From: Acidimicrobiia bacterium | GTDB lineage: Bacteria > Actinomycetota > Acidimicrobiia > Spongiisociales > UBA11373 | DNA: 64,000 bases | Direction of reading: 5' to 3' | Assembly (NCBI GenBank): GCA_030584185.1 | Contig: CP129495.1 | Coordinates: 124,001 to 188,000 of the forward strand | Shown here: positions 33,105 through 35,861 of the stretch, in pieces | Layout: each line of letters begins with the position of its first letter | Numbering within the stretch: the stretch's first letter is position 1 | The notes under the pieces: model-generated | Told to the model about the DNA's origin: nothing | Databases searched by the model: none | Seen by the model: only the letters and a program-made list of their open reading frames with translations | Made by a program: the position numbers and the translations under genes

Positions 33105-33664
33105 TGGTCTCCACCAACGATGTGCGCCCGGGCATGACGCTCGACCTGGACGACGGCATCTTCCAGATCGTTCAGTACGAGCACGTCAAGCCGGGCAAGG
33201 GCAAGGCCTTCGTGCGCATGCGCCTCAAGAACCTGATCACCGGGGCGGTGGTCGATCGGACATTTCGAGCCGACGAGTCGGTGCAGCAGGCGATCGTCGA
33301 ACGACGGGCTCATCAGTTCCTCTTCCGCGACGACACCGGATTCCACTTCATGGACGGCGAGGAGTTCACGCAGCTCACCATGTCGGAGAGCGACGTGGGC
33401 GATGCGGCCTGGTATCTGATCGAGGGCGAGACGGTCCACCTCGCCCTGTACGGTGGGGGGCCGATCGGAATCGACCTCCCCGTGTCGGTCGAACTCGCCG
33501 TCGTGGAGGCGGAGCCCGGGGTCAAGGGGGATCGATCCTCGGCCGGGACCAAGCCGGCGACCGTGGAGACCGGGCTGGTGGTGCAGGTACCCCTGTTCGT
33601 GGAGAAGGGCGATCGCATCAAGGTGGACACCCGGTCCGGGTCGTACATGACTCGGGTCTCATGA
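33104..33664 (+). CDS. efp: Elongation factor P
   Basis: A 186-residue three-domain tRNA-mimic that relieves ribosome stalling at polyproline. Domain I contains the loop HVKPGKGKAFVRMRLKNL, with the lysine at the usual tip position. Domains II and III follow (FRADESVQQAIVERR; VVEAEPGVKGDRSSAGTKPA; RIKVDTRSGSYMTRV). An unmodified lysine would be consistent with the actinobacterial norm, but no modification gene is seen here. ATG 33104 overlaps the pepP stop by one base. Confidence 0.96.
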   Translation: MVSTNDVRPGMTLDLDDGIFQIVQYEHVKPGKGKAFVRMRLKNLITGAVVDRTFRADESVQQAIVERRAHQFLFRDDTGFHFMDGEEFTQLTMSESDVGDAAWYLIEGETVHLALYGGGPIGIDLPVSVELAVVEAEPGVKGDRSSAGTKPATVETGLVVQVPLFVEKGDRIKVDTRSGSYMTRVS

Positions 33665-34029
33665 AACCGGGGGAGGCCCGGGATGACGCCCTCGCCGCCC
33701 TCTACGAAGCCGACCAGCGCCACACCGACCCCGACCTGGGCACCTTGAGCCGGAGGGCAAGCGAGATGGTCGCCGGGGTGTGGGAGTGCCGCGATGCCCT
33801 CGACGCCGAGATCGCCGAGGTCGCCGCCGGATGGCGCGTCGAGCGGATGCCTCCGATCGACCGCAACATCCTTCGCCTCGGCCTCTGGGAGCTCCGCAAT
33901 CGGCCGCACACGCCGGTGCCGGTCGTGATCTCAGAGGCGGTCCGGCTCGCCCGCCGCTTCTCGACCGGCCGCTCCGCCGGCTTCGTCAACGGAGTGCTGT
34001 CCCGACTCGCCTCGACCGAGGAGGAGTAG
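33661..34029 (+). CDS. nusB: Transcription antitermination factor NusB
   Basis: A 122-residue all-helical protein that binds boxA RNA with NusE/S10 during rRNA transcription. Conserved segments are ARDDALAALYEADQRH at the N-terminus, PPIDRNILRLGLWEL, VPVVISEAVRLARRFS and the terminal GFVNGVLSRLA. efp-nusB is the usual order and the genes overlap by ATGA. An rRNA operon, its likely target, is also in this window. Confidence 0.93.
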   Translation: MKPGEARDDALAALYEADQRHTDPDLGTLSRRASEMVAGVWECRDALDAEIAEVAAGWRVERMPPIDRNILRLGLWELRNRPHTPVPVVISEAVRLARRFSTGRSAGFVNGVLSRLASTEEE

Positions 34030-34623
34030 GTGGAGACGTTCGTGAGGGTTCCGGGCCGTAGCGCCGAGGACGCCCTGCGCTACGCATCCGGGCTCGGAGG
34101 CGAGTTCGGGCTGGCGGTGCCTGTCGGTCTCATCATGGGGGTGGGGCCGCTCGTGGTGCGTGCCCTGGCGGAACACGGCCCGGTCCTGGTCGAGGTGCCG
34201 ATTTCCGGGCCCGGGCCCGAAGTCTCCGAGGCCGTGCGCAGACTGGGTCGTCTCGGTGCCGCCTGGGTCGTCGTCGACGCGTCGTCGGGAGTCGAGGCGG
34301 TCAGTTCCGGAGTCGCCGCCGCCGCCGGTGTCGGGGTGCGGGTGGCTGCGGCCACACTGCAACCTTCGATCGACGACGCGGCATCACTGAGGCTCTTTGG
34401 GGGATCGCGTGGAAGCGTGGTATCCCGGTTGTCTCGGGCCGCAGTGGGGGTTGGAGCCGTTGGCGTGATGTGCACCCTCTCCGATCTCGGCGTGGTGGCG
34501 GGCCTCGAGGCATTCCGTTTCGCCTTCGTGGGCTCGCGCGACGAGTTGGAGGAGGCCGGGCGACGGGGCGCCGATGCGGCCCTGGTGACCGACCCAGGAA
34601 TCGCGGCGGGATTGATAGAGTGA
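34030..34623 (+). CDS. PyrF-like (OMP decarboxylase fold) protein lacking catalytic residues
   Basis: A 197-residue protein starting at GTG directly after nusB. It aligns by eye with orotidine-5'-phosphate decarboxylase along its length: FVRVPGRSAEDALRYASGL against the ALDVP strand, GLIMGVGPLVVRALAEHG against the KVGL helix, then VEVPISGPGPEV where DLKxxDIPNT should be, and GADAALVTDPGI where GADYLVVGRPI should be. The first Asp, the Lys of strand 2, the D-K-D triad and the phosphate-binding Arg are all absent. In many actinobacteria pyrF is the gene before mihF. It is probably a pseudoenzyme or a repurposed barrel; the function is unknown. Confidence 0.6.
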   Translation: METFVRVPGRSAEDALRYASGLGGEFGLAVPVGLIMGVGPLVVRALAEHGPVLVEVPISGPGPEVSEAVRRLGRLGAAWVVVDASSGVEAVSSGVAAAAGVGVRVAAATLQPSIDDAASLRLFGGSRGSVVSRLSRAAVGVGAVGVMCTLSDLGVVAGLEAFRFAFVGSRDELEEAGRRGADAALVTDPGIAAGLIE

Positions 34624-34645: not shown

Positions 34646-34957
34646 GTGACAGACCCGCCGGCACTATCGCCCGAGCAACGAGCCGTCGCACTGGAGCGTG
34701 CCGCCGAGGCCAGGCGGGTACGTGCCGAGGTCCGACGGGCGCTGGGCAGCGGTGAGACCGGTCTTGCGGAGGTCCTCGAGCAGGCACACGACGACCTCAT
34801 CGGGGGGATCAAGGTGAAGGCACTCCTCACGGCCCTGCCCGGTCTGGGAAAGGTGAAGTCGCGCCGACTGATGGAGCAGCTGGGAATATCCGAGAATCGC
34901 CGGCTGCGTGGACTCGGGATCAGGCAGAAGCGGGCTCTGCTCGACGCCCTGGGCTGA
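34646..34957 (+). CDS. mihF: Actinobacterial integration host factor (mIHF)
   Basis: A 103-residue basic nucleoid protein found only in actinobacteria. Recognisable segments are LSPEQRAVALERAAEARRVRAEV, the helix-two-turn-helix region KVKALLTALPGLGKVKSRRLMEQLGI and the end RRLRGLGIRQKRALLDALG. GTG start, with GGAGGAG about 7 bases upstream. mihF is normally followed by gmk and rpoZ; here an oppositely oriented kinase gene ends immediately next to it (adjacent stops TGA/TCA), and rpoZ follows farther on. Confidence 0.95.
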   Translation: MTDPPALSPEQRAVALERAAEARRVRAEVRRALGSGETGLAEVLEQAHDDLIGGIKVKALLTALPGLGKVKSRRLMEQLGISENRRLRGLGIRQKRALLDALG

Positions 34958-35836
34958 TCAGCCTTCCTCTTCGGGTCGAGCCCAGGCCGGCAGCGTGTCG
35001 AACGAGAACCCGTTGGCCGCTTCCCACGCCCGGACCTTGGCCGGCGTGACGCCTGACCGCGACGGCGGACGCCCATAGGCGGCGAGCCGGCACTCGACGA
35101 GGGACCTGCCTCCCTCGATCGCTGCCATCACCGTCCCGTGGCCGGCGACGATGACCGGGAAGCCGTCGCACACCGCGACCGAGATGTCCGAGGTCGGCCC
35201 GACGGCGAAGTCGGTGCCCCGGGCACGCGAGGGAAGCAGGCGGCGCGGCGAGAGCATGCAGCGCGGCTGGATCGGTGGCGGCGAGGCCACGGTTGACAAG
35301 ACCGCATCGGCGACTGCTTCCGCCGGCGCATGGGTGGAGTCGACGATGAGGTCGTAGTTGCGCCAGTCGTCGCGCACCACCCCGTAGAGCGCCAGGTAGC
35401 GGCGAGCCTCGACCCGCTCCCGTGTCTTTCCCTTCTCCCGAGCGGCGTCGATCGAGTCGTGGTGCTCGTCGTGGCGTCCGGCCCCGTAGACGCGGCGGGC
35501 ACCCTCGGCGGCATCGACCACGATGAAGACCTTGAAGGAATCGGGCACGAAGAACCATGCCATGCGCGAGTCGATGACCAGTGGACGCGGGTCGTCGGCC
35601 AGGCGGCGCAGGTGGCCGTCCACCTCGTCGTCGACCTCGGGGTGACCGCGGGCGTACTCGTTTAGTTCGAGGACGGTCATCCCCAACCGGTCGGCCAGGC
35701 GGCGGAACACGCCACCCGTCGAGAAGAGGTCCATGCCGGTGCGGTCGGCGATGATGCGCGCCACCGTGGACTTGCCGCTTCCGACGTGCCCGGCGATGGA
35801 GATCATCCGTTGCTGCGGCGTGGAGGGGGCGGTCAC
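34958..35836 (-). CDS. Cytidylate-kinase-like protein with extra C-terminal domain
   Basis: A 292-residue protein. Residues ~12-195 form a P-loop kinase: ISIAGHVGSGKSTVARIIADRTG, STGGVFRRLADRLGM, VIDSRMAWFFVPDSFKVFIVVDA, then RVEARRYLALYGVVRDDWRNYDLIVDST, which is the archaeal-type CMP-kinase pattern. The last ~95 residues contain ISVAVCDGFPVIVAGHGTVMAAIEGG, which looks like a ParB/sulfiredoxin-type fold (tentative). GTG 35836 has AGAGGT upstream; ATG 35806 is an alternative. It occupies the place of gmk on the opposite strand. The nucleotide specificity is not established. Confidence 0.65.
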   Translation of the reverse strand: MTAPSTPQQRMISIAGHVGSGKSTVARIIADRTGMDLFSTGGVFRRLADRLGMTVLELNEYARGHPEVDDEVDGHLRRLADDPRPLVIDSRMAWFFVPDSFKVFIVVDAAEGARRVYGAGRHDEHHDSIDAAREKGKTRERVEARRYLALYGVVRDDWRNYDLIVDSTHAPAEAVADAVLSTVASPPPIQPRCMLSPRRLLPSRARGTDFAVGPTSDISVAVCDGFPVIVAGHGTVMAAIEGGRSLVECRLAAYGRPPSRSGVTPAKVRAWEAANGFSFDTLPAWARPEEEG

Positions 35837-35861
35837 GGGACCTCTGTCGGCTGGGCGAGCC

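Follow-up and report, generated by a model that had tools for sequence, protein, structure and literature searches.

OMP decarboxylase (PyrF) is a textbook case of catalytic power. Its type-1 form (PF00215, TIGR01740) is represented by the solved structures 1EIX and 1DBT, and the substrate phosphate is held by gripper glutamine and arginine residues, as described in PMC12874384. According to the account in PMC12395307, helix 5 of the archaeal Mt-OMPDC partly contacts the other subunit in the dimer interface. A catalytically dead AdoMetDC paralogue of Trypanosoma brucei, the prozyme, is reported in PMC5201418 to activate its active paralogue by heterodimerisation, and PepA, as well as PyrH by genetic evidence, is described in PMC6245113 as acting with IHF on the carAB promoter of Escherichia coli. 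A search of open-licence papers revealed no inactive PyrF kept by selection.

The gene described here shares descent, locus and predicted barrel with type-1 PyrF, but its product is without the catalytic and phosphate-binding residues and the C-terminal gripper loop, and it scores below the family cut-offs. Evolution has preserved it, like the prozyme of the cited account, as a catalytically dead relative of a metabolic decarboxylase; the prozyme, however, activates a paralogue by heterodimerisation, whereas the active type-2 PyrF accompanying the present protein is only a distant relative. It is fairly probable that the gene is an ancestral type-1 pyrF which was displaced by a type-2 enzyme and kept as a non-catalytic, partner-binding (docking) barrel. 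The window, i.e. the whole stretch of 64,000 nucleotides that was analysed, covers positions 124001-188000 of a genome assembled as a single contig of 2.21 Mb, and the features concerned are as follows (window coordinates).

33661 to 34029, forward strand: nusB, directly upstream of the degenerate pyrF (PF01029 and TIGR01951)
34030 to 34623, forward strand: degenerate type-1 PyrF (pseudo-OMP decarboxylase), 197 aa, GTG start (open reading frame, predicted fold, catalytic audit, selection on relatives)
34192 to 34209, forward strand: former D-x-K-x-x-D site, residues 55-60, now E-V-P-I-S-G (alignment)
34399 to 34503, forward strand: residues 124-158, which run from the end of the loop after strand 5 through helix 5 and strand 6 into the start of helix 6 and include Arg127 and Asp152; here the gain of constraint in the dead copies is largest (conservation scan)
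34646 to 34957, forward strand: mihF (actinobacterial integration host factor), directly downstream of the degenerate pyrF (NF041260, 117.2 bits)

The GTG start at 34030 follows the stop codon of nusB (34027-34029) without a gap and has an AGGAGG sequence 5 nt ahead of it, and the gene's own stop codon occupies 34621-34623; these coordinates agree with the preliminary description, which had noted an open frame beginning immediately after nusB. The three genes nusB, degenerate pyrF and mihF are tightly packed. The interval between nusB and mihF is the usual place of pyrF in the class, and the window gene sits there at the coordinates first assigned to it; homologues at the same locus are canonical PyrF proteins, as expected from the earlier claim of a PyrF-like gene at the conserved pyrF position. 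Among 80 mihF loci of a named collection, 48 have a type-1 PyrF match, which in 45 cases ends no more than 200 bp from mihF; a further 19 have type-2 PyrF only. The catalytic motif is present in 47 of the 48 type-1 proteins, the exception being the copy of genome G012. In all the degenerate loci examined (15/15), mihF lies 3' of the degenerate pyrF; on the other side, nusB precedes it in family f1, to which the window genome belongs, and in genus g37 of family f2, while in genus g35 of family f3 (G064) the dead gene still follows carA and carB. Family and genus labels (f1, f2, f3, g1, g3, g35, g37) are used as assigned by the genome search.

Alignment with 57 of the proteins matched in relatives plainly places the window gene as a homologue of type-1 PyrF. 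Profile searches alone gave little: NCBIfam returned weak OMP-decarboxylase matches (PRK13813, E = 0.0016; PRK00230, E = 0.017), Pfam gave no OMPdecase (PF00215) match for the protein, TIGR01740 at E 1e-5 found none at the window locus in its own genome, and a score of 18.0 bits against a cut-off of 208 leaves the protein outside the curated NCBIfam OMP-decarboxylase family. An identity-based search of genome contigs with the window protein returned no match. When the protein was searched over 99 relatives, a match at E ≤ 1 was obtained in 94 of them, and the strong matches that were aligned are PyrF proteins adjoining mihF.

The AlphaFold2 model of the window protein is a complete eight-stranded barrel (mean pLDDT 96.9, pTM 0.91), and the solved structures that match it best are OMP decarboxylases (Foldseek E 1.8e-12); E. 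coli PyrF is a top match (VIA-align Z 25.3, rmsd 1.8 Å over 196 residues). A degenerate copy from g35, modelled separately, gave the same barrel (91.5/0.88; Z 24.5) and is also closest to OMP decarboxylases. The alignments supplied to AlphaFold2 took in 43 active relatives, so that some of the confidence in the fold may be borrowed from active enzymes. The prediction bears out the earlier view that the outline of an OMP decarboxylase barrel is kept and, as far as prediction goes, rules out an unrelated fold; the matches listed by the fold searches included none from other enzyme families of the barrel superfamily.

Catalytic residues were audited at eight positions in 58 aligned proteins, 43 of which were classed as active. 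The eight canonical residues are complete in 41 of the 43 active relatives, the exceptions being G004 and G089, in the latter of which strand 1 is cut off by the start call. The window protein keeps none of the eight, each being replaced or deleted: Pro8 stands at the strand-1 Asp, Ala29 at the strand-2 Lys and E55/P57/G60 at the D-x-K-x-x-D motif, and the alignment is gapped at the strand-7 Arg, the D-Q pair and the strand-8 G-R. The C-terminal phosphate-gripping loop is deleted, and the protein contains no lysine at all. The loss of all catalytic motifs, as read initially from the strand-1 Asp, the strand-2 Lys, the D-K-x-x-D motif and the phosphate-binding Arg, is thus confirmed. As judged from its sequence, the protein is a pseudoenzyme by loss of the family's conserved catalytic residues. 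The last position of D-x-K-x-x-D is Gly in all nine degenerate proteins of f1; this Gly60, together with Arg127 and Asp152, is new and fixed in the nine copies, whereas the active enzymes have Asp, mostly Pro, and Glu, respectively, at these positions.

In G004 (L070:2725-3426), an otherwise canonical type-1 PyrF has Gln in place of the strand-2 Lys, and no type-2 PyrF was found in this 85% complete genome; the change is possibly an early stage of loss or a tolerated substitution.

The lost activity is supplied in the same genome by a fused protein of 453 aa, the first half of which is a type-2 PyrF (TIGR02127, 219.6 bits, cut-off 110.6) and the second half PyrE, with an intact DAKRGD motif. 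Type-2 PyrF belongs to the same superfamily as the window protein but differs from it in being a distinct subfamily, encoded at another locus, with the active-site residues present. The fused gene lies elsewhere in the genome in a pyrC-pyrB-pyrFE cluster, pyrB and pyrC being named from reading their translations. The preliminary description had held that pyrimidine synthesis would need explaining if no other pyrF existed; the search for a second pyrF removes that concern, since the type-2 PyrF-PyrE is intact, and a missing pyrF is ruled out.

Type-2 PyrF (TIGR02127) was detected in 13 of the 99 relatives (seven f1, four g35 and two g37 genomes), with D-x-K-x-x-D kept in all 13 proteins, and each of these genomes also has a degenerate type-1 gene. 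Type-1 (TIGR01740) scores above cut-off in 85 of the 99, including 83 of the 86 without type-2; in 11 of the 13 genomes with type-2 it falls short of the cut-off or is not detected at all. The 14 relatives below the type-1 cut-off are these eleven together with G003, G012 and G050, the last with a type-1 fragment of 67.6 bits in a genome that is 69% complete. The two g37 genomes (G069, G081) reach 99 and 107 bits for type-1, where unsplit active copies score about 137-182; their D-x-K-x-x-D is present, the strand-2 Lys is now Gln, and the strand-7 Arg and the D-Q pair are damaged. From these residues, the g37 copies look to be early in the process of loss.

A dead type-1 PyrF accompanied by neither type-2 PyrF nor PyrF-PyrE in the searches was observed in G003 (91% complete; L069, L142), and likewise no type-2 PyrF was found beside the dead copy of G012 (76% complete). 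As neither assembly is complete, these genomes could belong to pyrimidine auxotrophs, or the contigs with the gene could be missing.

At least two kinds of type-2 gene occur, a PyrF-PyrE fusion in f1 and g37 and an unfused form in g35. They lie on separate branches of the tree, and their products share 50-60% and 39-42% identity, respectively, with the type-2 protein of the window genome. Among the fused proteins, the PyrF-PyrE of the f1 genus g3 groups with that of the f2 genus g37 and not with the other f1 proteins (L087-L090; G010, G002, G081 and G069; support 0.855), and this grouping in the sequence tree suggests transfer between families.

Degenerate pyrF was recognised at the locus in 17 genomes of the order, 15 of which have type-2 PyrF, and every copy has an open, full-length frame; the 17 include two g35 genomes, in addition to the four already counted, that show the same pattern. 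The dead copies fall in three lineages, namely f1, g35 of f3 and g37 of f2, and in each of the three families other members carry an active type-1 copy at this place. In an rpoB tree holding the six of the nine f1 degenerate genomes with usable rpoB, these six group apart from the active f1 genomes (support 0.956). The presence of active relatives in each family and the grouping of the f1 degenerates in the rpoB tree indicate at least three losses.

Outside the order, the type-1 (A1) profile was searched over 64 type-2 genomes and gave six matches at E 0.01 or better. The matches of G131 and G271 fall on their own type-2 gene, and three others are weak (E 0.002-0.004). G386 (L122:1480-2613) has both types with the type-1 motif residues intact, from which it follows that acquisition of type-2 does not always kill type-1. 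The other 63 genomes showed no evident type-1 copy in this profile search. As type-2 genomes outside the order are mostly copyless, retention of the dead copy is a habit of the order that does not extend to the class as a general rule.

Selection on the dead copies was estimated by pairwise maximum-likelihood dN/dS and by clade codon models, in relatives and in the f1 clade that includes the window protein. In g35 pairs with unsaturated dS (0.39-0.71), ω is 0.20-0.25 (2ΔlnL 37-57 against ω = 1), as compared to 0.073 in an active pair at similar dS; the g37 pair gave an ω of 0.12 (dS 1.7). The pairwise estimates of f1 were used only to reject ω = 1, since dS is saturated there (up to 38). In the clade models, ω is 0.059 over the seven f1 copies included and 0.201 over the four from g35, and ω = 1, fitted with kappa fixed at 2, is worse by 2ΔlnL of 420 and 142, respectively. 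In the g35 pair L080/L082, ω is 0.199 for the dead gene, 0.060 for carB and 0.125 for mihF, the carB controls leaving out the pairs with L081 (dN above 4). Values below 1 and above those of the active copies and the neighbours indicate purifying selection relaxed two- to threefold.

These estimates bear on the possibility that the old gene is slowly drifting to extinction since the arrival of type-2, its frame staying open only because the GC content is high and the gene lies in an operon. Such decay would agree with a dead-copy ω two to three times that of the active copies and neighbours, and with the rarity of type-1 copies in type-2 lineages outside the order. A simulation also revealed that in GC-rich DNA, substitutions alone make stop codons slowly; an open frame alone is consequently weak evidence of function, and it is the dN/dS tests that carry the point. 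Slow decay is nevertheless considered improbable, as ω = 1 is rejected in every pair and clade tested, including pairs that diverged after the loss, all 17 frames are open, and one segment is conserved more, not less, than in the active enzymes. Pure neutrality of the dead copies is ruled out by the rejection of ω = 1. The earlier remark that the gene is not simply a decaying pseudogene therefore agrees with dN/dS across the relatives; of the two findings that had been set against it jointly, orthologues with intact catalytic residues do exist, and neutral decay of the dead copies is rejected.

The segment concerned comprises residues 124-158. Seven f1 degenerate proteins have a lower mean identity overall than the active ones (0.46 versus 0.58), but a higher identity in helix 5 (0.63 versus 0.46) and helix 6 (0.72 versus 0.45). 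In a scan of 35-residue windows against the 43 active proteins, residues 124-158 came top in f1 and, independently, in g35; when the five active f1 proteins alone were used, the top window was 120-154. The segment is better conserved than the rest of the protein in 29 of 29 degenerate pairs within groups (21/21 in f1, 1/1 in g3, 6/6 in g35 and 1/1 in g37), but in no more than 121 of the 903 pairs of active proteins. Such pairs do not count as independent observations, and since the segment was picked on the f1 and g35 data, its choice bears least on the single pairs from g3 and g37. The contrast was reached by none of 196 circular shifts in f1 and by 5 of 196 in g35. The conservation running from helix 5 to helix 6 in the aligned sequences favours a binding role. 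As helix 5 is part of the archaeal dimer interface, the segment could keep the homodimer, a new partner, or both; on this analogy, it may merely keep the homodimer.

A different use of the barrel would be another reaction gained at the old mouth through residues such as Arg10, Arg127 and Asp152. Fixation of Gly60, Arg127 and Asp152 in the nine f1 copies is in line with this, and in the model these residues follow strands 3, 5 and 6, on what would be the usual active-site side. However, Arg127 and Asp152 are not consistently present in the g35 and g37 copies, the phosphate-gripping loop is deleted, and loops 3, 4 and 7 are poorly conserved in the f1 copies, which leaves a new enzyme with little probability.

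The dead protein could also act in the manner of the prozyme, binding and tuning the active type-2 PyrF or PyrF-PyrE. The dead AdoMetDC paralogue is a precedent in the account given in PMC5201418, and dead type-1 and type-2 genes co-occur in 15 of the 17 genomes. Against this, the would-be partners differ, the fused and unfused proteins lying on separate branches at the identities given above, and the dead type-1 and type-2 genes are unlinked in the genome of the window; a prozyme-like subunit is accordingly regarded as quite unlikely. That the DNA or RNA alone is needed, the frame keeping translation coupled to mihF or carrying the mihF promoter, would suit the tight packing of nusB, the gene and mihF and their linkage across the class, but it is hardly credible in view of selection at the amino-acid level and of the conspicuous conservation of one protein segment.

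Of the readings considered, a retained non-catalytic role has the best support. In the proposed course of events, a type-2 PyrF fused to PyrE would have taken over UMP synthesis from the ancestral type-1 pyrF of the order in the lineage of the window, and the old protein would then have lost its active site and phosphate-gripping loop while staying a folded barrel under purifying selection. The retained job would probably be binding, given the loss of catalysis and of the gripper loop and the special conservation of one face of the barrel. From the pattern of residue conservation, the partner is most likely bound by the face on which helix 5, strand 6 and helix 6 lie, and this activity was possibly already present in the active enzyme.

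The mIHF protein is a candidate partner only, proposed on the grounds that mihF always adjoins the degenerate loci examined. The suggestion in the preliminary description of a regulator or a scaffold is compatible with the docking barrel, as the conservation from helix 5 to helix 6 favours binding. The IHF of E. coli is not known to be homologous to actinobacterial mIHF. PepA and PyrH, which belong to protein families other than that of the window protein, offer a precedent, by analogy only and so far as the source cited above describes it, for metabolic enzymes regulating genes alongside integration host factor in pyrimidine control. A more speculative extension, put forward tentatively and with considerable doubt, is that type-1 PyrF of these actinobacteria is a two-job protein whose docking face would be linked most plausibly to mIHF, so that takeover by type-2 erodes the chemistry and leaves the docking.

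The recurrent retention of dead copies hints at a hidden second role. If so, the three independent dead copies would be natural separation-of-function mutants, allowing a test of whether an ordinary metabolic enzyme has had a second job all along. In annotation, the name pyrF should be avoided for such genes, and it is the type-2 gene that belongs in metabolic models.

A further observation concerns guanylate kinase (PF00625), which is missing in 4 of the 14 genomes of the family, including that of the window, and present in the other ten. Beside mihF, on the minus strand at 34961-35839, lies an archaeal-type CMP-kinase-like gene (TIGR02173, 97.0 bits, cut-off 102.1), which occupies the same position on the strand opposite to mihF in G005 and G008, with products 46-47% identical to that of the window, and hence in three of the four genomes without guanylate kinase. 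The contig of the fourth, G013, ends near mihF, and comparison with 15 further regions showed the gene in none of them. From this pattern, a kinase of another family seems to have taken the place of guanylate kinase at the same locus.
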